In this document: positions 2,791 to 30,908 of the stretch, piece by piece
Numbering within the stretch: position 1 is the first letter of the stretch
How the letters are laid out: every line of letters starts with the position of its first letter
Assembly (NCBI RefSeq): GCF_900609055.1
Contig: NZ_UXAW01000062.1
Coordinates: 1-38,788, forward strand
DNA from: Pseudogemmobacter humi
GTDB taxonomy: Bacteria; Pseudomonadota; Alphaproteobacteria; Rhodobacterales; Rhodobacteraceae
DNA length: 38,788 nt
Direction of reading: 5' to 3'
The notes under the pieces: generated by a model
The model's database searches: none
What the model saw: the letters and a program-made list of their open reading frames with translations, nothing else
What the model was told of the DNA's origin: nothing
Position numbers and translations under genes: made by a program

Positions 2791-2810
2791 TCCCGAGGAG
2801 AGTGCCGAGT

Positions 2811-9115: not shown

Positions 9116-10059
9116 CAGCGTTTCCCCCGGGCCGGGCGGGGCTGCGGATCCTGGGCGCGGTTCAGGACCACCGCGAGCAGCGGAATCCGCCCCTCGAACA
9201 GCCGCTCGCAGGCGGTGATCTCGGCGGGCGTGGTCCTCGTGCCGTCCACCACCAGCAGCACCGCGTCGACCCTGCCCGCGAGCGAGATCGCATCGTCCGA
9301 GGTCAGCGCGGGCGGCGTGTCGAAAATGATCATGTCGGGTTGCAGCACCTCGCCCATGGCGCGGAGCGTGTCGGCGACCTGGGGGTCTTGCAGCGTCTCG
9401 GCGGCGCGGGAGACCGGCGCCCCGTTCAGCGCCAGCGCCAGATTGCCGCCGATGCGGCGGAACTGCGATTCCAGCGGCTGCTCGCCCATCAGGAAATCGA
9501 GCAGCGGCTGCGCGTCGGTCTGGCCGAACAGGTCCGCCAGTTTCGGTTCGCGCAGGTCGAGATCCATCAGCACGGTGCGGCACGAGGGCAGCCGGCCGAG
9601 CGCCAGCGCCAGATTGGCCGCGACGAAGCTCGCACCGCAGCCCGGGCCGGGCGAGGTGACGGCAAGCCGGTTCCAGCCCTCTTTCGTCATGGCCTGGGCG
9701 ATGCGGGTGCGCAGCATGTCGAAAATGCGGGTCGCCGGGTGCTGTTCCGCTTTTGGGAACAGACCGTTTCGGGCCAGCCGGTCGGGGTTTACCTGCACCT
9801 CGCCAATCGATTCCCACACCCGCGAGGGGTTGGGCGCGGCGAAGTTTTCCGGCGCCAGCATGATCTCGCGTCCGGTGCGCTGGTCCAGCGTCACGGCGGA
9901 TTCGATGCGCGGATGGCCGGGGCGGAACAGCGAGACATAGCCCGGCCGCACCGCGCTGCGGGATTTGCTGCCGGGGTCGCCTTTTCCGCCTGACATCAGG
10001 GGAAGTCCTTCATCCAGGTGAGTTTTTCCGGTGGAGCCCAGGATCTCGTGGCGGCTCAT
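9115..10059 (-). CDS. CpsD/ExoP-type ATPase-like protein with degenerate Walker A
   Basis: This 314-residue protein matches the cytosolic BY-kinase-like partner of Wzz/GumC proteins, which normally autophosphorylates on tyrosine and controls polymer length. After about 105 poorly conserved residues it has T-S-P-G-P-G-C-G-A-S (135-144), where the invariant Walker A lysine should be. Position 143 is Ala, encoded by GCG at 9633-9631. The A' motif L-M-D-L-D-L-R-E-P (Asp166, Asp168) and Walker B I-I-F-D-T-P-P (Asp247) are kept. The C-terminus ends in R-A-R-G-K-R without the usual tyrosine cluster. It may be a regulatory pseudokinase or use an altered ATP site. ATG 10059 is preferred; an upstream ATG at 10134 is possible. 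It is coupled to the Wzz-like gene by TGATG. Confidence 0.85.
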   Translation of the reverse strand: MSRHEILGSTGKTHLDEGLPLMSGGKGDPGSKSRSAVRPGYVSLFRPGHPRIESAVTLDQRTGREIMLAPENFAAPNPSRVWESIGEVQVNPDRLARNGLFPKAEQHPATRIFDMLRTRIAQAMTKEGWNRLAVTSPGPGCGASFVAANLALALGRLPSCRTVLMDLDLREPKLADLFGQTDAQPLLDFLMGEQPLESQFRRIGGNLALALNGAPVSRAAETLQDPQVADTLRAMGEVLQPDMIIFDTPPALTSDDAISLAGRVDAVLLVVDGTRTTPAEITACERLFEGRIPLLAVVLNRAQDPQPRPARGKR

Positions 10060-10309
10060 GGTTCGTTCTGACCCCGACAAAAGGCGCCGCAACGCGCCGC
10101 ACAGAGAAGACACCTCCCGCCGGATGGCGGGCATGACGCCGGAGATTGCCGGAAACGGCGCCCGGGCGCAGCGGCCCGCGGCATCGGTTTTCCGGTCGTT
10201 CCGGGCCCCCGCCCGAGGATCATCGGATAGCAGATCGCGCGCGGAAAATAAAGTCTGCGCATGGGGTTGAGGCCCCCCGGCGCCCCCCGACCTCCTTGGC
10301 TCGCGGGCT

Positions 10310-10338
10310 TTGACAGCCGGGGTCCGGGGGCGTTAGCT
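10310..10338 (+). promoter_or_regulatory. Predicted sigma-70 promoter giving a leaderless mRNA
   Basis: A perfect -35 TTGACA (10310-10315) and a -10-like TTAGCT (10333-10338) are separated by exactly 17 nt. The ATG of the GT2 gene at 10346 starts 7 nt after the -10. Transcription would begin at or next to the start codon, and no Shine-Dalgarno sequence is present. Confidence 0.6.
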
Positions 10339-10345: not shown

Positions 10346-11341
10346 ATGAGCGCGCTTTCCTCTTCCCCGCCCCCCGTGGTCGATGCCCCTGTGGTCGATG
10401 CTGTGGTGATCGGCCGCAACGAGGGGCTGCGGCTCCTGGCCTGCCTCGCCTCGCTGCAAGGAAGGGTGCGCCGGGTGGTCTATGTCGACAGCGGTTCCAC
10501 CGACGGATCGGCGGCGGCGGCGCAGGCGGCGGGGGCCGAAGTGGTGGCGCTGGACATGCGCCGCCCCTTCACCGCCGCGCGGGCGCGCAATGCGGGGCTG
10601 GCGGTGCTGGAGGCGGCCCGCCCGCGCGCGGATTACGTCCAGGTCCTCGATGGCGATTGCGAGATGCGGCCGGGCTGGATCGCGGCCGCGCTGGCGGCTT
10701 TCGCGGCGCATCCCGGTGCGGTGGTGGTCTGCGGCCGCAGGCGCGAGCGGCAGCCGGAAGCCTCGGTCTGGAACCGGCTTTGCGACCGGGAATGGGACAC
10801 GCCCCCGGGCGAGGCGCGGGCCTGCGGCGGCGATGCGCTGATGCGGCTTGGCCCGGTGCTGGATGCGGGCGGCTACCGCGAGGATCTGATCGCGGGCGAG
10901 GAGCCGGAACTGTGCCTGCGCCTGCGCCGCGCCGGAGGCCAGATCTGGCGGATCGACGCCGAGATGACGCTGCATGATGCGGCGATGACCCGGTTTTCGC
11001 AATGGTGGCGGCGGTCGCGGCGCGCGGGCCACGCTTTCGCCGAAGGGGCGGCGCTGCATGGCGGCGCGCCCGAGCGGCACTGGCGGGCCGAGACGTGGCG
11101 TGCGCTGCTCTGGGGCCTCGGTCTGCCGCTGGCGGCGGTGGTCCTCGGGCTGATCCATCCGCTGGGCTGGCTGGTGCTTGCGGCCTGGCCTTTGCAGGTT
11201 CTGCGGCTGACGATCCGCTGGCGCGATCCGCAGGCGGCGTTCTTCACCGTGCTGGGCAAGATCCCCGAGGCGCTCGGCGCCCTCGGCTACTGGCGCGACC
11301 GGCTGCGGGGCCGCAGGCGTGGGCTGATCGAATACAAGTGA
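10346..11341 (+). CDS. Glycosyltransferase family 2 with C-terminal membrane helices
   Basis: This inverting GT-A glycosyltransferase of 331 residues probably adds one sugar to the lipid-linked repeat unit. The N-terminal half has V-V-I-G-R-N-E-G (about 20-27), V-Y-V-D-S-G-S-T-D-G-S (about 44-54) and the metal-binding D-G-D motif in Q-V-L-D-G-D-C-E-M. A G-E-E-P-E-L-C-L-R-L-R-R segment, corresponding to the acceptor-side ED motif, follows. A hydrophobic stretch near residues 250-290 suggests membrane attachment. It is transcribed away from the Wzz/CpsD pair and converges with the WecG-like gene after 2 bp. Sugar specificity is unknown. Confidence 0.9.
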   Translation: MSALSSSPPPVVDAPVVDAVVIGRNEGLRLLACLASLQGRVRRVVYVDSGSTDGSAAAAQAAGAEVVALDMRRPFTAARARNAGLAVLEAARPRADYVQVLDGDCEMRPGWIAAALAAFAAHPGAVVVCGRRRERQPEASVWNRLCDREWDTPPGEARACGGDALMRLGPVLDAGGYREDLIAGEEPELCLRLRRAGGQIWRIDAEMTLHDAAMTRFSQWWRRSRRAGHAFAEGAALHGGAPERHWRAETWRALLWGLGLPLAAVVLGLIHPLGWLVLAAWPLQVLRLTIRWRDPQAAFFTVLGKIPEALGALGYWRDRLRGRRRGLIEYK

Positions 11342-11343: not shown

Positions 11344-12090
11344 CTAGCGCCGCCGCAGCGCGCGCAAAGCCTCGCCCGGCAGGATGGCGGCGCAGGCGGC
11401 ATAGCGCGGGATCAGCCGGCGCGGCGAGGACAGCGCCCGCCACAGCCATTCCAGCGCCAGCGCCCGGATCCATTGCGGCGCGCGGCGCTGGTGGCCTGAC
11501 AGGAACTCGACCCCGGCGCCGACCGAGGCGAAGCCGAGCTGCGGCGCCAGCCGCCGCCCGAGCGCAGCGAGGCGCTCCTGCTTCGGTGCCCCGAGGGCGA
11601 TCAGGCACAGGCCCGGCCCCAGTTCCGCCAGCCGCGCCAGCGCGGCCCGCGCCGCCTCGCCTTCGGGATCGAACCCCATCGGCGGCGCGATCAGCAGACC
11701 CTGGCGCCAGCCCGGAATGCGCCGCGCGAGGTCCGCGCTCGCCGCGTCCAGCGCCTCTGCGCTCGCCCCCAGCATCGAGACCGGCAGGCCCGCCTGCGCC
11801 GCCGCCTCGCACAGCGGCAGCACCAGATCCGAGCCGGGCATCAGCTCCACCGGCTGCCCGGCCAGGCGCGACAGCCAGACGATGGGATTGCCGTCGGCCA
11901 CCACCATGTCCTGGGCGGCATAGGCGGTGCGGAACCCCGGGTCGCGGTGCAGCTTGACCAGGTGATCGAGGTTCAGCGTCGCCAGCGCGAAGCCCTCGCC
12001 CCGCGCCAGACGCGCGGAAACCCCGGCCAGAAGATCCGGCCGGGCGGCATGGGTGATCGCAATTTCTGTCGTCCCGACCCTGAACCGCAT
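11344..12090 (-). CDS. WecG/TagA/CpsF family glycosyltransferase
   Basis: This 248-residue enzyme belongs to the WecG/TagA/CpsF family, which transfers N-acetylmannosaminuronic acid, ManNAc or related sugars to lipid-linked acceptors. Visible family features are the N-terminal A-T-L-N-L-D-H-L-V-K-L block, V-V-A-D-G-N-P-I-V-W-L-S-R (the conserved D-G-x-P motif), the L-G-A-S-A-E segment, and C-L-I-A-L-G-A-P-K-Q-E near residues 165-175 (the G-x-P-x-Q-E signature). The start at 12090 follows a GGGGG-rich ribosome site. A longer in-frame start at 12150 would overlap the region upstream of the Wzy-like gene. It is divergent from that gene. Confidence 0.9.
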   Translation of the reverse strand: MRFRVGTTEIAITHAARPDLLAGVSARLARGEGFALATLNLDHLVKLHRDPGFRTAYAAQDMVVADGNPIVWLSRLAGQPVELMPGSDLVLPLCEAAAQAGLPVSMLGASAEALDAASADLARRIPGWRQGLLIAPPMGFDPEGEAARAALARLAELGPGLCLIALGAPKQERLAALGRRLAPQLGFASVGAGVEFLSGHQRRAPQWIRALALEWLWRALSSPRRLIPRYAACAAILPGEALRALRRR

Positions 12091-12241
12091 CCGGCCCCCT
12101 TTCGCGCAGAGCCTACCCGGCAGAGCCGGCGAAATCGACCGCCCCAGCATGGCAACAGAATGTTTCCCGCTGCGCGCCGGCGTGACGGGCCGGCGAGATC
12201 CGTGCTATCCCAAGGCCTGTCGCCGCCCGGATGAGACCGCT

Positions 12242-13645
12242 TTGGACATCACCCCCACCCCGATCGCCTGGATCGCGCTGCTGGCCTGGCCCGCGGTGGT
12301 CTGGGTGCTTTACGACCGGATGGGGCCGGGGCGCGCGCTGATCTGGTCGGTGCTGGGCGCCTATATGTTCCTGCCGGAGCTGTTGCGGCTCGATCTGCCG
12401 ATGCTGCCGGATTTCGACAAGCATACTTTGCCCGCGCTGGCGGCGGCGGTGATCTCCTGGCGCAGGCTGGGCCGGACGCTGCCGGTGCTGACCGGCAGCC
12501 GGCTGACCACGTTTCTGATCGGGCTGTTCGTGATCTCGCCCTTCGTCACGGTTCTGGGGAACACCGATCCCATCGTGCTGCGCCCGGGGCTGGAGGTGCC
12601 GGGCCTGCGCGCCTACGACAGCCTCGCCACGGTGGCGATGCAAGGGCTCTATGTCCTGCCGCTGTTCCTCGCGCGGCGCGATCTGGCCAGCCCCGAGGCC
12701 CTGCGCGACCTGCTGATCGCGCTGCTGACCGGCGGGCTGCTCTATACGCTGCCCCTGCTGATCGAGGCCGAGCTGTCGCCGCAGCTTCACACCTGGATCT
12801 ACGGCTATTTCCAGCACGATTTCGCCCAGGCCCTGCGCTTCGGCGGCTTCCGCCCCTTCGTCTTCATGCCGCATGGGCTGTGGGTGGCGTTCTTCATGCT
12901 GTGCTGTCTGATGGCCTCGGTGGCGTTGCTGAGGATGGGTCCGGCGCCGCGGCGGCCTGCGCTGCTGCTGGTGTTCCTGCTGTTTTGCGCGTTGCTGGTG
13001 ATCTGCAAATCCTTCGGCCCGCTGGCCTATGCGCTGCTGGCACTGCCGCTGCTGTTCGTCGCCACCCCGCGCCAGCAGGTGCTGATCGCGGCGGGGCTGG
13101 CGGCGATGGTGATGCTCTACCCGCTTCTGCGGGGCGCCCATCTGGTGCCGGTGCAGAGCATCGTCGATTTCGCCGCCCGGCTGAGCGAGGAGCGCGCGCT
13201 TTCCTTCCACTTCCGCCTGACGAACGAGGATGCGCTGCTTGCGCGCGCGGCCGAGCGGCCCCTGTTCGGCTGGGGCGGCTACGGGCGGGGCTTTCTCTTC
13301 AACATCGAGACCGGCGCCCATCTGACCATCGCCGACGGCGCCTGGATCATCCAGATCGGCGCTTATGGCTGGCTGGGCTACCTGGCCGAATTCGGCCTGT
13401 TGTGCCTGCCCCTGTGGCTGATGGCGCGCGAGGCGCTGGTCCGCGGGGCGCGGATCGCGCCGCAGGCGGCGGCGCTGGCGCTGATGCTGGCGTTCAACCT
13501 GGTCGATCTTTTGCCCAATGCCACGCTGACGCCTTTGACCTGGCTGATCGCCGGGGCGGTGCTGGGCCATGCCGAGGCTTTGAGCGCGGCGCGGCGGGCG
13601 GTGCCGCAAGCCGGGGCTGCGGCCGGGCGCCGCACCGTGATCTGA
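12242..13645 (+). CDS. Wzy/O-antigen-ligase-like polytopic membrane protein
   Basis: This very hydrophobic protein has about ten membrane helices and a larger extracytoplasmic loop after the middle. That is the layout of O-antigen polymerases (Wzy) and WaaL-type ligases. A loop segment with F-H-F-R-L-T-N-E-D-A-L-L, followed by F-G-W-G-G-Y-G-R-G, resembles the conserved H...GWGG-type loop of ligase/polymerase-domain proteins. The start is uncertain. TTG 12242 begins directly before the first helix (M-D-I-T-P-T-P-I-A-W) and gives 467 residues. ATG 12149 would add 31 polar residues. The frame also runs back to 12053, overlapping the divergent gene. As the only such protein in the window it is the best candidate polymerase. 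Confidence 0.82.
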   Translation: MDITPTPIAWIALLAWPAVVWVLYDRMGPGRALIWSVLGAYMFLPELLRLDLPMLPDFDKHTLPALAAAVISWRRLGRTLPVLTGSRLTTFLIGLFVISPFVTVLGNTDPIVLRPGLEVPGLRAYDSLATVAMQGLYVLPLFLARRDLASPEALRDLLIALLTGGLLYTLPLLIEAELSPQLHTWIYGYFQHDFAQALRFGGFRPFVFMPHGLWVAFFMLCCLMASVALLRMGPAPRRPALLLVFLLFCALLVICKSFGPLAYALLALPLLFVATPRQQVLIAAGLAAMVMLYPLLRGAHLVPVQSIVDFAARLSEERALSFHFRLTNEDALLARAAERPLFGWGGYGRGFLFNIETGAHLTIADGAWIIQIGAYGWLGYLAEFGLLCLPLWLMAREALVRGARIAPQAAALALMLAFNLVDLLPNATLTPLTWLIAGAVLGHAEALSAARRAVPQAGAAAGRRTVI

Positions 13646-13749
13646 GCGGGGATCTGAACGGGGTCTGAGCGCCCGCGATTGTCGCCTCACAGCGTCCAGT
13701 GGCAGGCGAAAGCGGGCGGCGCGGACAACCCTGGGGCGGGTAATCCCCT

Positions 13750-13796
13750 GAATTGTGGCGGGATTGCGGCATTTCCCCCGGCATTGTCGCCAATGC
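13750..13796. promoter_or_regulatory. Inverted repeat and shared motif upstream of the PKS
   Basis: The 270-bp spacer before the PKS gene contains GAATTGTGG (13750-13758), the same nonamer found before the exoY-like gene. It also contains a perfect palindrome GCATTG-tcgc-CAATGC (13781-13796), whose ATTG/CAAT core resembles the palindrome at 6186-6199. It may be a shared operator; the regulator is unknown. No strong -35/-10 pair was found, although a TAGATT at 13851-13856 could serve as a -10. Confidence 0.35.
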
Positions 13797-13915
13797 GGAC
13801 AAGAAGCCGCGCCGGGGGCTTGCGGGGTAGGACCGGGGCGCGATTCAGGCTAGATTCCGCGGATGCGGCAGGGGCTCCGGCGATGACCGCCGGACAGCCT
13901 CGGACCCGGGACGAT

Positions 13916-16900
13916 ATGATGAGTGATCAGACGCACGACCCTTCCGGCCTGACTGCCACCGACATCGCCATTGTCGGCATGGCGGCGCATCTGCCGGGGG
14001 CGGCGGATATCGGCGCCTATTGGCAGAACCTGAAAGCCGGGGTCGAATCGATCCGCGTCCTGACCGAGGCCGAGCTGCTGGCGGCTGGCGAGAGCCCGCA
14101 GACCCTGCGCCGCCCGAATTACGTGCCCGCCGCCGCGCCGCTCGACGGGTTCGAGACGTTCGATGCGGATTTCTTCGGTTTCTCGCCGAAAGAGGCGGCG
14201 ATCCTCGATCCGCAGCACCGCCAGTTCCTGGAGGTCGCCTGGGAGGCGCTGGAAAACGCCGGCCACCCGCCCGAGGGCTTCCCCGGCGCGATCGGGGTCT
14301 GGGCCGGCTGCGGCATGGGGTCTTACTTTTACTTCAACCTCTGCTCGAACCGCGATCTGGTCGAACAGACCGGCATGTTCCTCTTGCGCCACACCGGCAA
14401 CGACAAGGATTTCCTCGCCACCCGGGTCAGCCATATCCTCGATCTGCGCGGGCCTTCGGTCAACGTCCAGACCGCCTGCTCCACCAGCCTCGTCGCGGTG
14501 CATTACGCGGCGCAGGCGCTGCTTACGGGCGAATGCGACATGGCGCTGGCGGGCGGCGTGACCATCGAACTGCCGCACCGCCGCGGCTATCTTCACCAGG
14601 AGGGCGAGATCCTGTCGCCCGATGGCCATTGCCACGCTTTCGACCACCGGGCGCAGGGCACGGTGTTCGGCTCGGGCGCGGGCTGCGTGGTGCTGCGCCG
14701 CGCCACGGATGCCCTGCGCGACGGCGACCATATCTGGGCGATTATCAAGGCCAGCGCGATCAACAACGATGGCGCGGCGAAGGCGGGCTATCTGGCGCCC
14801 TCGGTCGATGGCCAGGCCGCCTGTATCGCCGAGGCGCAGGCGCTGGCGGGGATCACATCCGACACGGTGAGCTATGTCGAATGCCACGGCACCGGCACCT
14901 ATCTGGGCGATCCGATCGAGGTGGCGGCGCTGACCCAGGCCTTCCGCGAGAGCGCGGATGCCAAGGGCCATTGCCGGATCGGCTCGGTCAAGACCAACAT
15001 CGGCCATCTCGACACCGCCGCCGGGGTGGCGGGGCTGATCAAGGTGGCTTTGTCGCTGCATCACCGCGAACTGCCGCCGAGCCTCGGCTATGAGGCGCCG
15101 AACCCCGCCATCGACTTTGAAAGCTCGCCGTTCCTCGTGAACGACCGGCTGACGCCGTGGCAGGCGCCGGTCCTGCGCGCCGGGGTCAATTCGCTGGGCG
15201 TCGGCGGCACCAATGCCCATGCGGTGCTGGAGGAAGCCCCCGCCCGCGCGGCCGCCGAGGACAGCGACTGGCCGTTCCAGCCCATCGTGATTTCCGCGCG
15301 CAGCAAAGCGGCGCTCGACGCCCAGGCCGCGCGGCTGGCGGCGCATCTGCGCGCCCACCCGGAGCAGCCGCTGGCCGATGTGGCTTTCACGCTGAAGGAA
15401 GGCCGCCGGGCGTTCGGGATGCGCCGGGTGCTGGTGGCACGCTCGCATGCCGAGACCGCCGACCTGCTGGAAGGCGCCAATCCGCGCCTCGTGTTCAGCC
15501 ACGACCATCTCAGCGAGGCGCCCGGTGTCGTCTTCATGTTCCCCGGCGGCGGGGCGCAATATGCCGGCATGGCGCGCGATCTTTACGAGACCGAGCCGGT
15601 GTTCGCCGACTGGATCGACCGCGGCCTTGCCGTGCTGCAACCGAGGCTCGACTACGATCTGCGCGCGCTCTGGCTGCCCGCGAAGGGCGAGGAGGCGGCG
15701 GCAGAGGCCGCGCTGAAACGCCCCTCGGTGCAATTGCCGCTGATCATGATCGTGGAATATGCGCTGGCGAAGCTATACGAGGCCTGGGGCGTGACGCCGG
15801 AAATCCTCGTCGGCCATTCGATGGGCGAGAACACCGCCGCCGCTTTGGCCGGGGTGATGTCGTTCGAGGATTGCATCGGCCTTGTCCATCTGCGCGGGCG
15901 GCTGTTCGACACCGTGCCCGCGGGCGGGATGCTGTCGGTGCCGCTGCCGGAGTCCGATCTGGCGCGGTATTGGGCCGGGGATCTCGACATGGCCTCGGTC
16001 AACGCGCCGGGGCTCTGCGTGGTCTCGGGGCCGGATGCGGCGCTGGACGCGCTGGCGGCGCGGCTGGCGGCGGATGAGATCGAGACGCAACGGATCGCCA
16101 TCGACATCGCCGCCCATTCGCGGATGCTGGAGCCGATCCTCGCGGCTTTCGGCGACTATCTGCGCGGGATTTCTCTGAACCCGCCGCGCATCCCGATTGT
16201 GTCGAACCGCTCGGGCCGGGTGCTTACCGATTCCGAGGCGACAAGCCCCGACTATTGGGTCGCGCATCTGCGGGGCACGGTGTATTTCCGCGACTGCCTT
16301 ACGACGCTGACCGAGGTGCCGGGCCGGGTTTACGTCGAGATGGGGCCGGGCCGGGCGCTGTCCTCGCTGGCGCAGGCCAACGGCGTGGCTGCGGGCTGTG
16401 TCGTTCCCGCTCTGCGCCACCCCGGGCAGGAGGTGGGCGACGATGCCTGGCATGTCGCCAGCATCGCCCGGCTCTGGGCCTGCGGCGTGGCGGCGGACTG
16501 GTCGCAGATCTGGGGCGGGCGGACGCGCAACCGCGTGCCGCTGCCGGGCTACGCCTTCCAGCGCAAGCCCTGGTTCATCGAGCCGGGCCGCACCGCGGTT
16601 GCCGCGCCGGATGAGCCCGAGCGGAGCGACGATCTCACCGCCTGGGGCTGGAAGCCGCATTGGAAACCCGCCCCCGCCGGTTTCGACATCGAGGATCTGG
16701 CGGAAAGCCCGCCGGAGACCTGGCTGATCTTCGCGGATGCGGCAGGGCTTTGCGGGGCTGCGGCGGAACGGCTGGCGGCGGTGGGCCATCGGGTGATCCG
16801 GGTGCTGCCGGGCGATACTTTCGCGCGCATGGGCGAGGAGCGCTATACGCTGGCGCCCGAGCGGGGGCGCGAGGGTTATGACCTCTTGATCCGCGATCTG

Positions 16901-19900
16901 GCGGGGCGGGGGCTGGTGCCCTCGCGCATCCTGCACGGCTGGCTGGTGACGAAAGACGAGAGCTTCCGCCCTGGCTCGAGTTTCGGGCATCGCAACCTGG
17001 AACAGGGGTTCTGGTCGGTGCTGTTCCTGTTGCAGGCGCTGGCCGGGGAAAACCTCGCCCGCGATCTGAAGATCACCGTGCTGACGAATGGCGCGGCGCA
17101 GGTCAGGGCCGAGACTTTGACCTGGCCGGGGAAGGCGATGGTCATGGGCCCGGTGCGGGTGGCGCCGCGCGAGTTTTCCGGCGTGGAAGTGTCGGCGCTG
17201 GATCTGGAACTGCGCGACCCGGCGCGGCTTGCGGGTTTCGTGCTGGAAGAGGCGCTGGCCGATGGTTCTGCCGTTGCCGCGCTGCGCGGCGAGCGGCGCT
17301 ATGAGCAGGGGGTGAAGCCCGCACCGCTGCCCGAGGAGCGGCTGGACCTGCCCGAGGGCGCGCATGTGCTGATCACCGGCGGCTTCGGCGGCATCGGGCT
17401 GACGCTTGCCGAGGATCTGATCCGCCGCCATCGGGTGAAGATCACCCTGATCGCCCGCGGCGCGCTGCCCGAGGGTGCGGCCCGCGCGGCCTGGCTGGCG
17501 GGCCATGCGCCCGACGATCCGGTCTCGCGCCGCCTTATGGCGCTGGCGCGGCTGGAGGCTCTGGGCGGCGAGGTCCATGTTGCGCGCGCCGATGTGGCCA
17601 ATCTGTTCGAGATGCAGGCCGCGCGCGACGAGGGGATGCGCCGCTTCGGGCCGGTTCATGCGGTGATCCATGCCGCGGGCGTGGTCGCCGACGGGCCCCT
17701 GATGGTGAAACCAGCGGCCGAGGTGGAAGAGGTTTTCGCGCCGAAGCTGCACGGGACCGAGGTGCTGGACCGGCTGTTCCCGGACGGGTCCATCGCGCTG
17801 ATGGTGCTGTTTTCCTCGACCTCGGCGCTGACCGGCCCGGCGGGGCAGGTCGATTACGTGGCCGCGAACGAATATCTCAACGCTTATGCGAAGGCGCGCG
17901 CCGGGGGCGCGACGCGGGTGGTGGCGCTGAACTGGGGGATCTGGCAGGGCGTCGGCATGGCGGCCGAAAACCTCGCCGACCGGCTGGGCCGGCCCGAGGC
18001 GCCGCGTCTGCCGGTCGCCCGGCCGATGCTGACGGAGGCCGGGTTCGACGCGCGCGGCAACCGGGTGTTTTACGGCGAGTTTTCCACCCGGGACTGGCTG
18101 TTCGACGGCCATCGCACGGCAGAGGGCCAGGCTCTGCTGCCGGGCACCGGCTATCTGGAACTTGCCGCCGAGGCCTGGGCGGAACAGGGCGAGGCGGGCG
18201 GGTTCGAGCTGCGCGATCTGACCTTCTTCCGCGCGCTGGATCTGGCCGAAGGAGAGCGCCGCGCGGTTCGGGTGCGGCTGAGCCGCACGGGCGAGGGCTA
18301 TGGATTCGAGGTGCAGTCGCAGGTGACGGTGGCCGGGCGGACCGGCTGGCAGACCCATGCCAGCGCGCGCCTCTTGCCGCAGGACGCGATCCCGCCGGGG
18401 ATCGACCCCGGCAGGATCGCGGCGCGGCTGCGCGCGCCCGAAACCGGCCAGGGGCTCGCCAGTCCTCAGGAGAGATTCCTCTCCTTCGGCGCGCGCTGGC
18501 GGGTGCTGCAATCGCGCGCGTTCGGCGAGGGCGAGGGGCTCGCGCGGCTCACGCTGCCCGCGGCGTTCCGCGCCGAGCCGGGCGAGGGCTGGCTGGCGCA
18601 TCCCGCGCTGATGGATCTGGCGACCGGCTGGGCGATGGAGCTGATCCAGGGCTACCGGCCGGACCGGCTCTGGGTGCCGGTGAGCTACGGCAGCGCCAGG
18701 GTTTACGGGCCGGTGCCGGCCGATCTGGTCAGCCATGTCAGGAGCGCCGCGCCGAACAGCCTGGACAAGCCGACGGCGGTGTTCGACATCACGCTGGCCA
18801 CGCCCGGGGGCCGGGTGGTGGCGGAGATCAGCGGCTTCACCATCCGGCGGCTCGACGGGGCGCTGACCTTCCCGCCGCCCGATCCGCGCGGGCTGGAGAG
18901 CGAGGCGGCTCAGGCAGAGCTCTCGCCCGCCGAGGAGCGGCTGGTCGCCGCCTTCCGCCAGGGCATCCGCCCCGCCGAGGGGGCCGAGGCTTTCGGGCGC
19001 GCGCTGAACGCGGGGCTGTCGCAGATCGTGGTCTCCTCGCTCGACCTGCCGGCGCTGATCCGCCAGGCGGGCGCGCCGCAGATGCGGGCCGGGAGCCAGG
19101 CCTTCGAGCGGCCCGAGTTGGAGAATGATTACATAGCCCCTCGCGACGACATCGAGCGCAGCCTCGCGGGCTTCTGGCAGGAGCTGCTCGGGGTGGGTCA
19201 GGTCGGCGTCGAGGACAGTTTCTTCGACCTCGGCGGCCACAGTCTGATCGCGGTGCGGCTGTTTGCCATGGTCAGGAAAACCTGGGCGGTGGATTTCCCG
19301 ATCTCGGTCCTGTTCGAGGCGCCGACCGTTGCCGCCTGCGCCGCGATGATCCGCGAGGCGGCGGGGATCGGCGAGGACAGCGCGGCGCAGGCGCCCGCGA
19401 AACCCGCCCGCCGCTTTACCCATCTGGTGCCGATGCACCAGGGCGAAGGGGGCGCCGGGACGCCGTTCTTCCTGGTGGCCGGGATGTTCGGCAATGTGCT
19501 GAACCTGCGGCATCTGGCGCAACTGGCAGGACACGACCGGCCGTTCTACGGCCTCCAGGCCCGCGGACTTTACGGCGAGGACAGACCACATGACAATTTC
19601 CCCGGGGCCGCGCGCGATTACATCGCCGAGCTGCGCCAGGTGCAGCCGCGGGGGCCGTATCTTTTGGGCGGCTTCTCGGGCGGCGGGCTGATCGCCTGGG
19701 AGATGGCGCGGCAGCTGGAGGCGGCGGGGGATGAGGTGGCGCTGCTGGTGCTGCTGGACACGCCCTTGCCGATGCGGCCCGCGCTTTCGCGCCGCGACAA
19801 GGTGCTGATCAAGCTGGCTGAGCTGCGCGCGCGCGGGCCGGGCTATCTGGCCGAATGGGCGAGGAACCGCTGGGAATGGGAGAGGCGCGGGCGCCACGCC

Positions 19901-20248
19901 AGGCCGGAGACCGCGGAAACCGGCTTTCACAACTCGGCGATCGAGGCCGCCTTCCGCGCGGCGCTGCCGGGCTACCGGATGGAGCCGCGCGCAGGCGCGA
20001 CGGTGCTGTTCCGCCCGCCGCTCGATCTGCGCTGGAAGGTGTCGGGCGGGCGTTATGTGTCCGCAGCGCGGGAATATGTCTTTGCCGACAACGATCTGAC
20101 CCGCTTCGCGCCGGCGTTGCAGGTGATCGAAGTGCCGGGCGATCACGATTCCATGGTGCTGGAGCCGAACGTCCGGGTGCTGGCGGCGCGGCTGAAGGCG
20201 CTGATCGCGACGGACGAGACCCCGGCCTTCGCGGCGGCGGCGGAGTGA
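13916..20248 (+). CDS. Type I polyketide synthase, KS-AT-KR-DH-ACP-TE
   Basis: This single-module PKS of 2110 residues is expected to extend a carrier-bound acyl starter by one (methyl)malonyl unit, reduce it, optionally dehydrate it, and release it. The KS triad is Cys188 (T-A-C-S-T-S), His324 (H-G-T-G-T) and His364 (N-I-G-H-L). AT has Ser635 in G-H-S-M-G-E and His734 in I-A-A-H-S, instead of the usual HAFH or YASH. KR binds NADPH at G-G-F-G-G-I-G (1155-1161) and keeps Ser1301, Tyr1314 and Asn1318. DH follows, with His1399 and Asp1567. ACP has Ser1776 in D-L-G-G-H-S-L. TE has Ser1921 in G-F-S-G-G-G and His2077. DH after KR is not the usual order. ATG 13916 is used; 13919 and 13883 (with AGGGG 8 nt upstream) are alternatives. 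The next gene starts 4 bp after the stop. Confidence 0.93.
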   Translation: MMSDQTHDPSGLTATDIAIVGMAAHLPGAADIGAYWQNLKAGVESIRVLTEAELLAAGESPQTLRRPNYVPAAAPLDGFETFDADFFGFSPKEAAILDPQHRQFLEVAWEALENAGHPPEGFPGAIGVWAGCGMGSYFYFNLCSNRDLVEQTGMFLLRHTGNDKDFLATRVSHILDLRGPSVNVQTACSTSLVAVHYAAQALLTGECDMALAGGVTIELPHRRGYLHQEGEILSPDGHCHAFDHRAQGTVFGSGAGCVVLRRATDALRDGDHIWAIIKASAINNDGAAKAGYLAPSVDGQAACIAEAQALAGITSDTVSYVECHGTGTYLGDPIEVAALTQAFRESADAKGHCRIGSVKTNIGHLDTAAGVAGLIKVALSLHHRELPPSLGYEAPNPAIDFESSPFLVNDRLTPWQAPVLRAGVNSLGVGGTNAHAVLEEAPARAAAEDSDWPFQPIVISARSKAALDAQAARLAAHLRAHPEQPLADVAFTLKEGRRAFGMRRVLVARSHAETADLLEGANPRLVFSHDHLSEAPGVVFMFPGGGAQYAGMARDLYETEPVFADWIDRGLAVLQPRLDYDLRALWLPAKGEEAAAEAALKRPSVQLPLIMIVEYALAKLYEAWGVTPEILVGHSMGENTAAALAGVMSFEDCIGLVHLRGRLFDTVPAGGMLSVPLPESDLARYWAGDLDMASVNAPGLCVVSGPDAALDALAARLAADEIETQRIAIDIAAHSRMLEPILAAFGDYLRGISLNPPRIPIVSNRSGRVLTDSEATSPDYWVAHLRGTVYFRDCLTTLTEVPGRVYVEMGPGRALSSLAQANGVAAGCVVPALRHPGQEVGDDAWHVASIARLWACGVAADWSQIWGGRTRNRVPLPGYAFQRKPWFIEPGRTAVAAPDEPERSDDLTAWGWKPHWKPAPAGFDIEDLAESPPETWLIFADAAGLCGAAAERLAAVGHRVIRVLPGDTFARMGEERYTLAPERGREGYDLLIRDLAGRGLVPSRILHGWLVTKDESFRPGSSFGHRNLEQGFWSVLFLLQALAGENLARDLKITVLTNGAAQVRAETLTWPGKAMVMGPVRVAPREFSGVEVSALDLELRDPARLAGFVLEEALADGSAVAALRGERRYEQGVKPAPLPEERLDLPEGAHVLITGGFGGIGLTLAEDLIRRHRVKITLIARGALPEGAARAAWLAGHAPDDPVSRRLMALARLEALGGEVHVARADVANLFEMQAARDEGMRRFGPVHAVIHAAGVVADGPLMVKPAAEVEEVFAPKLHGTEVLDRLFPDGSIALMVLFSSTSALTGPAGQVDYVAANEYLNAYAKARAGGATRVVALNWGIWQGVGMAAENLADRLGRPEAPRLPVARPMLTEAGFDARGNRVFYGEFSTRDWLFDGHRTAEGQALLPGTGYLELAAEAWAEQGEAGGFELRDLTFFRALDLAEGERRAVRVRLSRTGEGYGFEVQSQVTVAGRTGWQTHASARLLPQDAIPPGIDPGRIAARLRAPETGQGLASPQERFLSFGARWRVLQSRAFGEGEGLARLTLPAAFRAEPGEGWLAHPALMDLATGWAMELIQGYRPDRLWVPVSYGSARVYGPVPADLVSHVRSAAPNSLDKPTAVFDITLATPGGRVVAEISGFTIRRLDGALTFPPPDPRGLESEAAQAELSPAEERLVAAFRQGIRPAEGAEAFGRALNAGLSQIVVSSLDLPALIRQAGAPQMRAGSQAFERPELENDYIAPRDDIERSLAGFWQELLGVGQVGVEDSFFDLGGHSLIAVRLFAMVRKTWAVDFPISVLFEAPTVAACAAMIREAAGIGEDSAAQAPAKPARRFTHLVPMHQGEGGAGTPFFLVAGMFGNVLNLRHLAQLAGHDRPFYGLQARGLYGEDRPHDNFPGAARDYIAELRQVQPRGPYLLGGFSGGGLIAWEMARQLEAAGDEVALLVLLDTPLPMRPALSRRDKVLIKLAELRARGPGYLAEWARNRWEWERRGRHARPETAETGFHNSAIEAAFRAALPGYRMEPRAGATVLFRPPLDLRWKVSGGRYVSAAREYVFADNDLTRFAPALQVIEVPGDHDSMVLEPNVRVLAARLKALIATDETPAFAAAAE

Positions 20249-20252: not shown

Positions 20253-21239
20253 ATGGCGCGGCTTCTGAGCGTGATCCTGAACTGGCGCACGCCGGAGATG
20301 ACGCTCCGCGCGGCCGAGGCTGCGCTGGCGGCGCTCGACGGGATCGGGGGGGCGCTGACCATCGTGGACAACGATTCCGGCGACGGGTCGTATGAACGTC
20401 TGAGTGCCGAAGTCGCCGCCCGTGGCTGGGACAAGGGCGCGCATCCGGTGCGGGTGCTGCAATCGGGGCATAACGGCGGTTTCGGGGCGGGGAACAATTT
20501 CGGCATCCGGGCCGGACTGCCCGGCGGCGAGCGGCCGGATTACGTCTATGTGCTGAACTCCGACGCCTTCCCGGCCCGGGACGCGATCCGCATCCTGCTG
20601 GATCATCTGGAGCGCCACCCGCAGACCGGCTTTGCCGGCAGCCATATCCACGGCGAGGACGGCGCGCCGCATCAGACCGCCTTTCGCTTTCCCTCGGTCG
20701 CGGGCGAGTTCGAGGCGCATCTGCGGCTTGGCCTCGTCTCGCGCTGGCTGGCGGGCAGCGTGGTGCCGCTGCCGGTCCCGGTAGAGACCACAAGGGTGGA
20801 CTGGCTGGCCGGCGCCAGCCTGATGATGCGGATGGATGTGCTGGACCGGATCGGCCTGTTCGACGAGCGGTTCTTTTTGTATTTCGAGGAAACCGACCTC
20901 TGCCGCCGTGCCGCGCTGGCCGGCTGGCCCACCGATTACCTGCCCGCAAGCCGGGTCGCGCATATCGGCTCGGTCTCGACGGGGATGAAGACCTGGAGCC
21001 GGATCCCCGGCTTCTGGCTTGATTCGCGGCTGCATTATTTTGCCAAGAATCACGGGCGCGGTTACGCCCTGGCCGCCACCGCCGCCGCTGTGCTGGCGGG
21101 CGCTTTGTGGCGGGCGCGGCTGATGATCCAGCGCAAGGACAGAGGCGATCCGCCGCGCTATCTGCGGGACATGCTGAACCATCATATCCGCCGCGGGTTT
21201 CGGATGATTCCCGCAGCCAGCCGAAAGGGGCGATCATGA
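20253..21239 (+). CDS. Glycosyltransferase family 2, rhamnosyltransferase-like
   Basis: This 328-residue GT-A enzyme resembles WbbL-type rhamnosyltransferases. It has V-I-L-N-W-R-T-P (about 7-14), [23 protein letters not shown], the metal-site region Y-V-L-N-S-D-A, and the acceptor block [17 protein letters not shown]. The L-N-S-D variant and the NGG-F-x-x-GNN motif are typical of this subgroup, which commonly uses dTDP-L-rhamnose. It lies inside the PKS/NRPS operon, 4 bp after the PKS and overlapping the NRPS start by ATGA. It may glycosylate the polyketide-peptide product, or couple that product's operon to the glycan locus. Both are inference from position. Confidence 0.9.
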
Positions 21240-24200
21240 GCCTTTCCGCCATTCTCATCGGGAACGAGACGCTGACCAGCCAGTGCGGCGCCTTCTGGCT
21301 GTCGCGCGGGCATCGCATCGCGGTGGTGGTCAGCGAGGCCGCGCCGGTGCGGGCCTGGGCCGCCGCCGAGGGCCTGCCGGTCGCGGATTACGGGCCGGAT
21401 CTGGCGGAACGGCTGCCGGGGGCGGACTGGCTCTTGTCGGTCGCCAATCTGGCGGTGCTGCCCGTGGCGGTGCTGGCGAAGGCCGTGCGCGGCGCGGTGA
21501 ATTTCCACGACGGGCCGCTGCCGGAACATGCCGGGCTGAACGCGCCGGTCTGGGCGATCCTGGCCGGAGAGCCGCGCCATGGTGTGACCTGGCACCTGAT
21601 CGAGGGCGGTCTCGATCGCGGCCGGATCCTGGTGGAACGCAGGTTCGACATCGCCCCGGATGAGACCGCGCTGACGCTGAACACCCGCTGTTTCGAGGCC
21701 GGGCTGGAGAGCTTCCCCGAAGTGGTGGCGCAACTGGAATCCGGCCCGCAGCCGCGCGCTCAGACGGGCGAGGGGCGGCTGCATCTGCGATCCGAGCGCC
21801 CGCCCGCCATGGGCCGGATCGACTTCGCCCGCCCGGTGGCAGAGGTGTTGCGGCTGGTGCGCGCGCTGGATCACGGGCGCTATGCCAACCCGGTGGCCAC
21901 CGCGAAGATCGACACCGGAACGCGGGTTTTGAACGTGGGCAGCGCGGCGCGCGCCGAGGGCGCGGGGGCGCCGGGGGCGGTGCTGGCGGCCTCGCCCGAG
22001 GGGCTGGTGGTGGCCTGCCTCGATGGCGCGGTGCGGCTGAGCCGTCTGACCTGCCAGGAAAAGGGCGGTGTGGTCTGCCCCTCGACCGTCGCCGCAGCGG
22101 CGTTGCCGCTCCTGAGCGCGGAGGAAGCCGCGCGGCTGACCCTGGCCTCGGCGGCGGCCGCAAGGGCAGAGCCTCGGCTGCACCGGCTGCTTGCCGATCC
22201 GCAACCGCTGGCGCTGCCGACGGCGCAGACCGGCGAGGCGGCGGAATGGTGGAAGCTCGGCCTTGCGCTGACCGATCTGCCGGTGCTGGCTTTGGCTGCG
22301 CTTCGTGCTTTCGGGGCGGATGGTGGCGATCTTGCCCGGGCGGTGCCGGGCCTGCCCGGCTATCTCTCGGCATGGGAGCCGGTGCGGGTGGAGCCCGGCG
22401 CGACGGTTGCGGCGGCGCGTGAGACGCTTGGCGCGAGCCTGGCCGCGCCCGGGACCGGCTGGCCGCTGGATCTGATGAGCCGCGACCGGGCGCTCGCTGC
22501 GCTCGCGGTGCCGGCGCTGGCGCTTTCCGGCGCGGGCCCGGTGCAGGGCAGCGCGCTGACGCTTGCCCCCGGCGCGCTGCATTTCGACGCGAGCCGCATC
22601 CCGCCCGAGACCGCGCAGGCGCTGGCGACCCGGATCGACTGGCTGGCGGCACGGATCGAGACGGCGGGGTATGCGAGGCTGGCCGAACTGCCCGCCCTGA
22701 CCCCGGCCGAGCGCGATTTCGTGCTGAATCGCGTGAACGACACCGCGCGCGAGCATGACCGGACCGCCCTGATCCATACCGCTTTCGAGGCCCAGGTCGC
22801 GCGCACCCCCGACGCCCCCGCGCTGGTCTATGAGCGCGAGGTGCTGAGTTACGCGGATCTCAATGCCCGCGCCAACCGTGCCGCCCATGTGCTGCGCGGG
22901 ATGGGGGTGGGACCGGGGATGCCGGTCGGGCTGGCGACACGGCGCGGCCCCGATCTGGTGGTGGGCGCGCTTGCGATCCTCAAGGCGGGCGCGGCTTACG
23001 TTCCGATGGACCCGGCCTATCCGGCGGAACGCCTCGCGCTGTTCGCCGAAGACAGCGCCGCGCCGGTGATCGTGACGCAAAGCGACCTGATCCCCGCGCT
23101 GCCCGAAGGGGTGGCGAAGCTGGCGCTGGACGCCGACCCGCGCCTTGCCGCGGCCCCGCAGACCAACCCCGACAGCGGCGCCGGCCCCGGGGATCTGGCT
23201 TATATGATCTATACCTCGGGCTCGACCGGGCGGCCCAAGGGGGTGATGGTCGAGCACCGCAACGTGGCGAACTTCTTCGCCGGGATGGACGAGCGCCTCG
23301 GGACCACGCCCGGCACCTGGCTTGCGGTGACATCGCTGTCCTTCGACATCTCGGTGCTGGAACTGTTCTGGACGCTTTCGCGCGGCTTCCGGCTGGTGAT
23401 CTCGTCGGATGAGAACCGGGCTCTGGTCTCGGCCGGGCGGATCACGTCCGAGCAGAAGATGGATTTCTCGATCTATTACTGGGGCAACGACGATGGCCCC
23501 GGCCCGCGGAAATACCACCTGCTGCTGGAGGGCGCGCGCTTTGCCGATCAGAACGGCTTCCGCGCGGTCTGGACGCCCGAGCGGCATTTCCACGCTTTCG
23601 GCGGCCCCTATCCGAACCCCGGCGTGACCGGCGCGGCGGTGGCGGCGGTGACAAAAAACATCGACGTGCGGGCGGGCTCGGTCGTGGCACCCCTGCACCA
23701 CCCGGCCCGGATCGCCGAGGACTGGGCGGTGATCGACAATCTTACGAACGGCCGCGCGGGCCTTGGCTTCGCCAGCGGCTGGCATCCCGACGATTTCGTG
23801 CTGCGCCCGGAGAACGCGCCGCCGAACAACAAGGCGGCGATGTTCGATGCGATCACCCAGGTCCGCGCGCTCTGGCGCGGCGAGGGGGTCGATTTCCCGA
23901 AGGGCGACGGGTCGACGTTCACCGTGCGCACCCAGCCCCGCCCGGTTTCCGCCGAACTGCCGGTCTGGGTGACGACCGCCGGAAACCCCGAAACCTGGCG
24001 CGAGGCGGGCCTTGTGGGCGCCAATGTGCTGACGCATCTTCTGGGCCAGTCGGTCGAAGAGGTGGCGGGGAAGATCCGTCTCTACCATGCCGCCCTGCGC
24101 GAGGCCGGGCATGACCCCGCGGATTTCACCGTGACGCTGATGCTGCACACCTTCCTCGCGGCCACGCGCGACGAGGCGCGCCGCCTGGCCGAGGGGCCGA

Positions 24201-25744
24201 TGAAAGCCTATCTCGCCTCGGCCGCCGGGCTGGTGAAGCAATATGCCTGGGCCTTCCCGGCGTTCAAGAAACCGGCGGGCGTGGCGCATCCGATGGACAT
24301 CGACCTGACCGCTTTGTCGGAGGAGGAAAGCGCCGCGATCCTCGATTTCGCCTTCCAGCGTTATTTCGAGGATTCGGGCCTGTTCGGCACGGTGGAGGAT
24401 GCGCTCTCGCGGGTGGAGCAGCTCAAGGCCATCGGTGTGGGCGAGGTGGCCTGCCTTGTGGACTACGGCATCGCGCCCGAACTGGTGCTGGAGGGGCTGA
24501 AGCCGCTGGCCGAGGTGGTGCGGCTTGCGAACAGCGGCGGGCTGGCCGAGGATGATTTCTCGATCGCGGCGCAGATCCGGCGCCATGGCGTCACCCATCT
24601 GCAATGCACGCCCTCGCTGGCGCGGATGATCCTGATGAACGAGGACAGCCGCCGGGCGCTGTCGCGGCTGGACACGATGCTGGTCGGCGGCGAGGCGCTG
24701 CCGGGCGCTTTGGCCGCCGATCTGAACCGCGCGGGCGTCGGGCGGCTTCTGAACATGTATGGCCCGACCGAGACGACGATCTGGTCCTCGGCCGAGGAGG
24801 TGACGGTGGCCGATCCGGTGGTCAACATCGGCAGGCCGCTGGCGAACCAGTTCCTCTATGTGCTGGATGAGGGCGGCGCGCCGGTGGCGCCCGGAACGCC
24901 CGGCGAGTTGTGGATCGGCGGCGAGGGGGTCACCCGGGGCTACTGGAAGCGGTCCGATCTGACCGACGAGCGGTTCGTTCCGAATCCGTTCCACGGTGGC
25001 CGGATGTATCGCAGCGGCGATCTGGTGCGGCTGCGCGCCGACGGGCGGCTGGATTACATCGGCCGGGCCGACCAGCAGGTCAAGCTGCGCGGCTACCGGA
25101 TCGAGCCGGGCGAGATCGAGGCGGTGCTGGAGGAACAGCCCGGTGTCACCCAGGCCGTGGTCATGGTGCGCGAGGACAGCCCCGGCGATCCGCGGCTGGT
25201 GGCCTATACCACCGGCACGGCAGAGGAATCCGCCCTGCGTGCGGCTTTGGCGGCGGAACTGCCCGCCCATATGCTGCCCGCGCATTACCTCCGGCTGGAG
25301 CGGTTCGCGCTGACGCCGAACCGCAAGGTGGACCGCAAGGCCCTGCCCGCGCCCAATGCGCAGCCGGTGGCGGAGGCGGTCTTCGCCGCGCCCGATACCG
25401 GCATCGGGCAAGAGATCGCGCAGATCTGGGCCCGGGTGCTGGGCGTGCCACGGGTTGGCGCGAAGGACAATTTCTTCGCGCTCGGCGGCCATTCGCTGCT
25501 GGCGGTTCAGGCGCATCGCGAGATCCGCGAGAAGCTGCCGCAGGCGAAGATCTCGATCACCGACATCTTCCGCTTCCCGGTGCTGGAGACGCTGACCGCC
25601 CATATCGCCGGACCGCAGGCGGCGGCGGTGCTTACGCCTTCTGCGCCGCAGGTGTTCCGCCCGGCGCCGGGGGGCGAGGGGCTGGACGATGCCATGTCGC
25701 GCCGCCGGGCGATGCGGCTGGCGCGGCGCGGCGTGGATGCCTGA
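21236..25744 (+). CDS. NRPS starter: formyltransferase-A(embedded FMN monooxygenase)-T
   Basis: This 1502-residue starter protein begins with a formyltransferase domain (about 1-300) bearing Asn89, His91 and Asp127, spaced as in Met-tRNA formyltransferase. Residues about 310-500 have no HHxxxDG, so no working condensation domain is visible. The adenylation domain has A3 T-S-G-S-T-G near 661 and A4 at D704. A luciferase-like FMN monooxygenase (about 738-1100, MupA/Atu3671-type) then interrupts it, and it resumes with A5 N-M-Y-G-P-T-E at 1173 and the A10 Lys1364. T-domain Ser1420 is in G-G-H-S-L. The by-eye specificity residues D704, I705, L708, Q1123, L1149, G1151, M1174, I1182, W1183 and K1364 nearly match the glycine code. 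There is no thioesterase. ATG overlaps the previous stop (ATGA). Confidence 0.93.
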
Positions 25745-26342
25745 GGCGGGCGCGGCCCTCGCGGCGCTGGCGGGCGGCTGGCTGCCGGGCTGCGCGGTCG
25801 CCTGGGCCGACCCCGCGCGGGCGTATCCGCTGCTGCCGGGCGAGGATGTGACCGGCATGGTGCCCAAACGCGCGGCGGAGTTCTCGGCCGGGCGGCATGC
25901 GGCGCGGCTGGCGCTCGGCGCGGCGGTGGCGATCCCGAAAGGGGAAGACCGCGCGCCCGTCTGGCCCCGGGGCGTGGCGGGGTCGATCACCCATGCGGGC
26001 GGCGTCTGCCTTGCCGCCGTGTCGCACGAAAGGCGCGGGATCGGGCTGGATCTGGAGCCTTTGCGGGCATTGGGGCCGGAACTGACCGCGCTGATCCAGA
26101 ACGAGGACGACCGGATGGAGGATGCGGGCGATCCGGGCCTGTGGCTCTTTTGCGCCAAGGAAGCGGTCTACAAGGCGCAATATCCGCTGACCCGCCGCAT
26201 TCTCGGCCCCGAGGCGCTGGCGGTGACGATCCGGGGCGGGCATCTCACCGCGCGTTCGCGCGAACCTTCCGCGCAAGGCGGGCAGATCGCCGGGCGCATC
26301 GGGGTTTGCGCGGGCTACGTCCTCGCCGTCGCCTGGCTGTGA
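25737..26342 (+). CDS. Sfp/EntD-type 4'-phosphopantetheinyl transferase
   Basis: This enzyme moves phosphopantetheine from CoA to the conserved serines of carrier domains, here most likely Ser1776 of the PKS and Ser1420 of the NRPS. The 201-residue protein has the family motifs [10 protein letters not shown] (44-53), G-S-I-T-H-A-G-G (82-89), the Mg-binding G-L-D-L-E-P (Asp105, Glu107), and F-C-A-K-E-A-V-Y-K (138-146, with Glu142 and Lys146). ATG 25737 lies 8 bp inside the NRPS end and is taken as the start; an in-frame start at 25689 would lie further inside the NRPS. Its coupling to the NRPS makes the cluster self-sufficient for carrier activation. Confidence 0.93.
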
Positions 26343-27874: not shown

Positions 27875-27889
27875 CGCGAGATCCCCCGC

Positions 27890-30802: not shown

Positions 30803-30854
30803 CTGGCGGTCTCCCGGCTGGGAATGGCTGTCACTGCGGCGGAGCGGGGCTGAA

Positions 30855-30901
30855 CCCGGATTTTTTCAAAAATCCGGGCAAAATTCTTTGAAGAATTTTG
30901 C
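30855..30901. repeat. Two perfect back-to-back hairpins between fdsB and fdsA
   Basis: The first stem is CCCGGATTTTT (30855-30865) with AAAAATCCGGG (30868-30878). The second is GCAAAATTCTT (30878-30888) with AAGAATTTTGC (30891-30901). Each has an 11-bp perfect stem and a 2-nt centre, and they share one base. They fill most of the 106-bp gap in an operon whose other junctions are overlaps or at most 15 bp. They are AT-rich at the tips, unlike the surroundings, and may be a dispersed palindromic repeat or an RNA processing/stability element. Confidence 0.75.
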
Positions 30902-30908
30902 GGGTGGT

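Follow-up and report, generated by a model that had tools for sequence, protein, structure and literature searches.

Why does a nonribosomal peptide synthetase (NRPS) that combines a formyltransferase with a flavin monooxygenase lie among exopolysaccharide genes, and what might it make? The question is raised by a 38,788-nt stretch of DNA from Pseudogemmobacter humi (Rhodobacteraceae; contig NZ_UXAW01000062.1), here called the window, which encodes a starter NRPS of 1502 residues at 21236..25744 on the plus strand. It forms a conserved pair with the polyketide synthase (PKS) encoded next to it, and the two lie inside an exopolysaccharide locus. The reading that we favour, with a probability of a little under 0.6, is that the two proteins form a starter system in which an N-formyl-alpha-hydroxyglycyl-S-carrier is handed to the PKS, and that the resulting unit enters the exopolysaccharide; the chemistry, the order of its steps, the product and the polysaccharide role are what we infer.

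We analysed the anatomy of the NRPS by domain search, structure prediction and motif search. The formyltransferase (FT) domain at the N-terminus (residues 1-276; 21236..22063; triad N89/H91/D127) is followed by the C-terminal half of a condensation (C) domain, without the half that bears HHxxxDG (residues 277-505; 22064..22750; recognized by hhalign). The adenylation (A) core begins with motifs A1-A4 (residues 510-735; 22763..23440; PF00501 at 517-728 and a Foldseek match to 1amu), is interrupted by a flavin mononucleotide (FMN)-dependent luciferase-like monooxygenase (LLM) of the MupA/Atu3671 type (residues 741-1097; 23456..24526; TIGR04020), and resumes with its second part and the A subdomain (A5-A10; residues 1104-1370; 24545..25345). 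The protein ends with a carrier (T) domain (25409..25606; PF00550 at 1392-1457; Ser1420), and all these parts are on the plus strand. Both domain search and predicted structure place the TIGR04020-type LLM, which scored 469.8 bits, inside the A domain between motifs A4 and A5; the LLM also matched 6ket, the PuwE domain, with E 6e-99, and comparison of the structural model gave a TMt of 0.90. An earlier note, made from the sequence alone, had proposed a formyl-A-T starter with a glycine code and a flavin oxygenase, and the anatomy supports it. The FT domain match and the alignment recovered the predicted triad Asn89/His91/Asp127; the PF00501, TIGR04020 and Foldseek placements put A3/A4 before and A5-A10 after the luciferase-like domain, as described; the fold expected at about 738-1100 was found at 741-1097; and the carrier Ser1420 agrees with the PF00550 match, the serine being present in 60 of 61 aligned sequences with a gap in the other. 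A motif search did not find the catalytic condensation motif HH...D[GA] in the NRPS, just as the note had reported for HHxxxDG. Both features of an N-formylating starter, namely A and T domains in cis with an N-terminal Asn-His-Asp formyltransferase, are thus present, and we consider the domain anatomy near certain.

The architecture is frequent in the family of the window. Among 295 genomes of this family (the window's included, each from another genus), 107 had an LLM match (E<=1e-60) and 105 an FT match (E<=1e-25). Comparison of the two lists by hand gave 102 genomes with both, five with the LLM only and three with the FT only. Four of the LLM-only genomes carry the LLM close to a contig edge that would cut off the FT; in the fifth (G263) an LLM frame of 363 residues stands by itself, with a PKS frame on one side and NRPS frames on the other, in a different cluster (L219, contig C63). 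One FT-only case is at a contig edge; the other two (G085 and G097) have no LLM in the protein. In the order sample, 159 of 390 genomes had the FT, spread over 65 of 139 genera; in the class sample, 11 of 385 genomes had an LLM match (E<=1e-100), five of them from the window's family, its own genome included. Another genome of the window's own genus (G938) gave no FT match, so the cluster is patchy even inside the genus.

For the comparison of loci we used 60 family loci (one genome contributed two) and an overlapping set of named loci. Eighty of the latter were the best 80 of at least 559 by similarity to an alignment (A1) that has a Deinococcus sequence first and then three FT-bearing sequences; the short loci L106-L115 were left out. 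The FT was present in 75 of 87 named LLM loci, a proportion biased by this similarity-based choice. The FT-bearing named loci, many of which are metagenome bins, come from eight phyla: Pseudomonadota, Myxococcota, Acidobacteriota, Gemmatimonadota, Chloroflexota, Cyanobacteriota, Verrucomicrobiota and Nitrospinota. In a quick tree of 55 rows picked from 88, one clade (SH-aLRT 100) held 35 FT-bearing rows from Alphaproteobacteria, Myxococcota, Acidobacteriota and others, and the remaining FT rows were interspersed with FT-less rows. Because the FT needs at least three changes on the starred tree branches, a single FT origin is not shown.

What lies between the FT and the A domain? Residues 277-505 have no Pfam match. 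A profile of this stub, built from 75 relatives and the window, aligned by hhalign to the condensation domain with a probability of 98.9 and E 3.2e-17 over template columns 186-447 of 447, against 0.6% or less for four unrelated control profiles. The stub profile matches all 75 FT-bearing named loci, and the structure model of the region is confident. In hmmsearch the window sequence alone matched the C profile weakly (2.8 bits); 74 of 76 segments were reported, 20 of them above 10 bits and some covering part of the half, and no shuffled sequence exceeded 10 bits. Since the single-sequence search is weak for the window, the half-C claim is carried by the profile-profile comparison. VIA-align with the N-terminal model gave 50 rows, all of them formyltransferase-fold chains and so none for the half C, and the Deinococcus N-terminus reached probabilities of only 6-9 against the C or the stub profile. 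The upstream full C domain that is the context of known glycine modules with an inserted monooxygenase (MOX) was not found in the window NRPS, which has the C-terminal half only. A half C lacking its HHxxxDG part implies that the FT occupies the place of the catalytic condensation half.

The FT and half C also occur together in the absence of the LLM. Among five LLM-less FT proteins, the gap between FT and A was matched by the stub profile in L220, L222, L223 and L224, and by the full-C profile in these same proteins except L223 (columns about 186-437). By the C profile, the combination is found in Rhizobium jaguaris, Bradyrhizobium barranii and Sinorhizobium meliloti; one Streptomyces protein matched the stub profile only, and a second (L221) matched neither. 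Judged by these profile matches, FT plus half C appears to be a starter architecture broader than the LLM-bearing proteins. The four LLM-less starters with a half C are on rhizobial and Streptomyces plasmids, and FT matches are frequent in Sinorhizobium plasmid records (87 of 162).

The ten-residue A code of the window, drawn from residues 704-1364, is DILQLGMIWK, on what we take to be the correct mapping of its residues onto the GrsA positions. The code was DILQ[LMFY]GM[IV]WK across 61 family sequences, the last position missing in one row, and D-I-L-Q-x-G-M-[IV]-W-K in all 75 FT-bearing named loci. All of these 75 have Met at position 322, as do 11 of 12 FT-less LLM A domains; L139 has Val there. 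A survey of 2051 A domains reports DILQLGMIWK for each of its four glycine domains with a MOX (PMC12283262). The earlier note had called the code near-glycine, with position 322 as its only mismatch to DILQLGLIWK. The mismatch is real, but DILQLGMIWK is the published MOX-glycine code and no near-miss. The counts for LLM domains, together with the code of the survey, indicate that Met322 accompanies the monooxygenase insertion. The survey places MOX insertions generally between A8 and A9 and calls the reaction beta-hydroxylation, unlike other sources (PMC12283262). Glycine loading and N-formylation by the window NRPS are likely.

The partner PKS, with ketosynthase (KS), acyltransferase (AT), ketoreductase (KR), dehydratase (DH), acyl carrier protein (ACP) and thioesterase (TE) domains, is encoded at 13679..20248 on the plus strand; its frame opens at TTG 13679, and the real start is probably near 13916. 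A GT2 glycosyltransferase gene (20253..21239, plus) lies between PKS and NRPS, and a 4'-phosphopantetheinyl transferase (PPTase) gene (25689..26342, plus; PF17837/PF01648) follows. A PKS homologue was present in all 60 family stretches, a GT2 homologue in 55, a PPTase homologue in 49 and a flippase homologue in 26. The alignment of the PKS (the window and the 55 of 60 family rows longer than 1900 residues, five short rows being dropped) showed no variation across its 56 sequences at 12 of 13 catalytic positions, and the TE His in 55 with a gap in one. A KR-DH PKS lies within the stretch in 63 of the 75 FT-bearing named loci; of the 12 loci without one, seven span less than 17 kb. No acceptor domain was recognised in the NRPS, and the PKS has a KS and a TE, which suggests the order NRPS then PKS.

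We then counted six polysaccharide classes (flippase, sugar transferase, kinase, WecG, Wzy and Wza homologues) per stretch, using queries from the window and L099-L101, which distant homologues may escape. Of the family loci, 54 of 60 had at least one class, and of the FT-bearing named loci 50 of 75; the figures were 0 of 12 for FT-less LLM loci and 1 of 20 for control stretches from family genomes. The corresponding numbers for two or more classes were 29/60, 30/75, 0/12 and 0/20. All three Myxococcota loci had one or more classes. A polysaccharide role in Alphaproteobacteria is, in our view, a fair bet. Three relatives (L120, L122 and L125) carry a tandem pair of hydrolases similar to exosortase-A-associated hydrolases 1 and 2 (TIGR03100/TIGR03101, with scores below cut-off), and in L120 and L122 the PKS frames are shorter (about 1920-1940 residues), the TE being probably missing.

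In the window, the genes upstream of the PKS begin with a Wzx-type flippase (1441..2790, plus) and a group of dTDP-rhamnose-type genes (2769..6137, plus), made up of rmlC (2769-3374), rmlB-like (3371-4420), rmlD (4363-5262) and rmlA-like (5259-6137) genes, each on the plus strand. They are followed by genes for a WbaP-like undecaprenyl-phosphate sugar transferase (6734..7549, plus; below cut-off), a polysaccharide tyrosine autokinase-like protein (9115..10332, minus; below cut-offs), a further GT2 glycosyltransferase (10346..11341, plus), a WecG/TagA/CpsF glycosyltransferase (11344..12150, minus; TIGR00696 over cut-off) and a Wzy/O-antigen-ligase-like membrane protein (12053..13645, plus), whose match is weak (PF04932, E 6.7e-4, under cut-off). 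On the other side, FdhD, formate dehydrogenase alpha, NuoF-like and LysR genes (27065-33970, minus) adjoin the locus; the order of the FdhD, formate dehydrogenase alpha and NuoF-like homologues is kept in L050 and L053.

How might such a pair work? The A domain would activate glycine and load it onto Ser1420, the N-terminal FT would cap the amine with formyl-tetrahydrofolate as donor, and the FMN-dependent LLM would hydroxylate the alpha carbon of the carrier-bound N-formylglycine. The glycine-MOX substrates of myxothiazol, melithiazol and solanimycin are N-acylated by the peptide and a starter has no peptide, which suggested to us that formyl may replace the peptide as the N-acyl group and keep the alpha-hydroxyglycine from ammonia loss. 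The KS of the neighbouring PKS would accept the N-formyl-alpha-hydroxyglycyl unit for extension (malonate is assumed), the KR and DH would reduce and dehydrate, and the TE would release or transfer a short acyl unit, for example 4-formamido-4-hydroxycrotonyl. In Alphaproteobacteria and Myxococcota this acyl unit would most likely join the exopolysaccharide pathway. We also entertain, as speculation, a widespread exopolysaccharide class with N-formyl-alpha-hydroxyglycine plus one or more PKS extensions as its non-sugar unit and the carbinolamide as a masked-aldehyde cross-linker, where formamide loss would give a reactive 4-oxocrotonyl group that could cross-link the matrix.

By analogy with its relatives, alpha-carbon hydroxylation by the window LLM seems more likely than any other oxidation. 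In vitro, MupA hydroxylates the carbon alpha to a carrier-bound thioester, and OocM is described in the same paper as alpha-hydroxylating a carrier-bound acyl thioester (PMC10952193). The glycine-module MOX of myxothiazol and melithiazol carries out alpha-hydroxylation with later cleavage, and the solanimycin glycine MOX does so with the hydroxyglycine retained (PMC11342130, PMC10204066). Alpha-hydroxylation was also proposed for PuwE by its authors (PMC4219810) and for a TIGR04020 LLM in a PKS (PMC8739492). As to the formyl group, CongA is a formyltransferase-A(Gly)-peptidyl carrier protein starter that feeds a PKS, and formylation of a carrier-bound amino acid is recounted there for LgrA (PMC4504003).

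Natural variants bear on this scheme. L217 (genome G085) has no LLM, and a short linker joins A4 to A5; its A code is DILQLGLIWK, the canonical glycine code. It keeps the FT triad and the KS, AT, ACP and TE residues, but its PKS has other residues in place of the KR Ser and Tyr and lacks the DH. This single case fits LLM oxidation and the reductive steps belonging to one route. L216 (G097:C17:143000-162900) has lost the LLM, the FT triad and the NRPS carrier Ser, and its PKS has lost the KS Cys and both His, the AT Ser and His and the KR Tyr and contains an in-frame stop. It retains the PKS carrier and TE residues, the A code DILQMGMIWK and long frames, and is probably a dead or dying copy, or a pseudoenzyme. 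This pair adjoins a flippase and a kinase gene. L105 (Nostoc sp. C052 plasmid) has an LLM-interrupted A module with an FkbM-type methyltransferase match and adjoins a type I PKS gene.

Several observations weigh against the favoured reading. The same FT is present in NRPSs without the LLM, and L217 is the sole informative LLM-less relative. L043 (G126:C6) has the LLM though its FT His91 and Asp127 are changed to F and S; another copy in the same genome (L098) has its triad unbroken. In two of the 12 FT-less loci, L103 and L122, an LLM A domain is paired with a KR-DH PKS, so the FT is dispensable for the pair, which goes against formyl as a protecting group and has lowered our confidence. L103, an LLM-interrupted glycine A module on a Deinococcus actinosclerus plasmid, lies among annotated polysaccharide genes despite having no FT, though none of the six classes matched. 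A flavin reductase was not recognised among the window open reading frames (ORFs) scanned. None of the six classes was found in the eight FT-bearing loci of six phyla (Chloroflexota, Gemmatimonadota, Cyanobacteriota, Verrucomicrobiota, Nitrospinota and Acidobacteriota), where distant homologues may have escaped, nor in the gammaproteobacterial L127 (4.7 kb) and L137. This uneven context across phyla suggests that the two-protein cassette is older than the polysaccharide link, or looser.

It is possible, although we would bet against it, that the starter chemistry is the same and the product free and diffusible; the exopolysaccharide setting would then reflect genomic clustering, or the product would regulate the matrix without joining it. 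Six relatives outside Alphaproteobacteria and Myxococcota (L116, L117, L120, L122, L124 and L125), which have transport, NRPS or exosortase-type hydrolase genes nearby, speak for such a metabolite, and an acyltransferase joining the PKS product to a sugar was not identified. The excess of polysaccharide classes in family loci over control stretches (54/60 against 1/20), and the GT2 homologue in 55 of 60, argue for incorporation instead.

Other readings differ in the chemistry itself. Cleavage as in MtaG, in which alpha-hydroxylation and then formamide loss would leave a glyoxylyl-S-carrier to prime the PKS, the formyl being a disposable amine cap, has precedent in the MOX in the glycine A domains of myxothiazol and melithiazol (PMC11342130, PMC10204066), and the window has the identical published MOX-glycine code. 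We think it unlikely, as alpha-hydroxyglycine persists in solanimycin B (PMC10204066) and the myxothiazol/melithiazol glyoxylate is released by a terminal TE, at the end of a chain and not at its start (PMC11342130). Quite improbable is an oxazole starter as in conglobatin and oxazolomycin, where N-formylglycyl would be extended and cyclised to a 5-substituted oxazole and the LLM would act later. The CongA precedent speaks for it, but the KR and DH residues are retained in the PKS, and these domains would eliminate the keto group on which ring closure depends. A scan of the window and other loci for the motif SGG[KR]DS of the CongE/OzmP-type ATP pyrophosphohydrolase gave a single match, in L168, which reads as low-complexity, and the oxazole route was set aside. 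The earlier note had suggested flavin oxidation of nitrogen, giving an N-hydroxyformamide metal-binding group, a reading invited by the presence of a flavin monooxygenase and a formyltransferase on a single glycine module. It now appears very improbable: the relatives oxidise the alpha carbon, the neighbours are exopolysaccharide genes, and the scan, which covered part of the window's ORFs, recognised neither a siderophore gene nor a TonB gene. The N-hydroxylation or siderophore reading was set aside on the relatives' chemistry and the gene neighbourhood.

The NRPS is present in more than a third of the sampled family genomes, with a PKS homologue at all 60 family loci. If correct, the favoured reading adds a starter that shields the normally unstable alpha-hydroxyglycine through formylation, shows an FT in place of the catalytic condensation half and ties NRPS/PKS chemistry to polysaccharide; L217, without LLM, KR site and DH, offers a built-in natural comparison. 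The non-sugar unit class, if real, would mean a dedicated alpha-hydroxyglycine starter in at least eight phyla and, to our knowledge, the first NRPS/PKS route decorating a Wzx/Wzy-type polysaccharide.

We compared the system with known ones. No literature joining FT and LLM in one NRPS was found, most subscription papers being beyond the search, and the accessible part of PMC4359443 has nothing on an FT-LLM NRPS/PKS cluster. In the Roseobacter clade, PKS and NRPS genes are reported as present and exemplified by Phaeobacter inhibens Inhi_1972 and Inhi_1974, citing Martens 2007 (PMC4062626); the accessible text says nothing of their domains, of a formyltransferase or monooxygenase, or of a connection with polysaccharide. 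Their gene spacing fits the PKS-GT2-NRPS order of the window, and a Phaeobacter metagenome-assembled genome (L173) has PKS, GT2, LLM-NRPS and PPTase genes, the FT being incomplete; the two P. inhibens genes probably belong to the window's NRPS-PKS family. The RkpA/WcbR capsule PKSs are likewise type I PKSs among polysaccharide genes, a likeness of gene setting alone, and no NRPS starter is mentioned in the accessible text (PMC3908369).

MupA names the subfamily of the window LLM; however, MupA and OocM act in trans and PuwE lies between PKS and NRPS modules, as described, whereas the window LLM is inside an A domain. Alike in this respect are the MOX-glycine modules of myxothiazol, melithiazol and the crz-like systems of Serratia and Pseudomonas, with a flavin monooxygenase within the A domain, and SolF of solanimycin, with one in its glycine module; they are likened to the window protein by description, as presumed TIGR04020 members. 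These modules are described as acting late on peptidyl-glycine, in contrast to the window protein, a starter with a formyltransferase, no catalytic C half and a PKS partner. The LgrA initiation module of linear gramicidin, whose structure is solved, is also an FT-A-T starter, but its FT match ends near 173 and its A domain starts near 206, leaving no room for a half C, and it has no LLM. Among formyl-glycine starters that feed a PKS, CongA/OzmO comes nearest; CongA, grouped with OzmO and rhizopodin, combines formyltransferase, glycine A domain and carrier as here. For CongA no monooxygenase is mentioned in the accessible text (PMC4504003), and the CongE/OzmP-type motif is absent from the window. 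Set against these systems, FT-half C-A(LLM)-T is a new combination of known parts, real and conserved.

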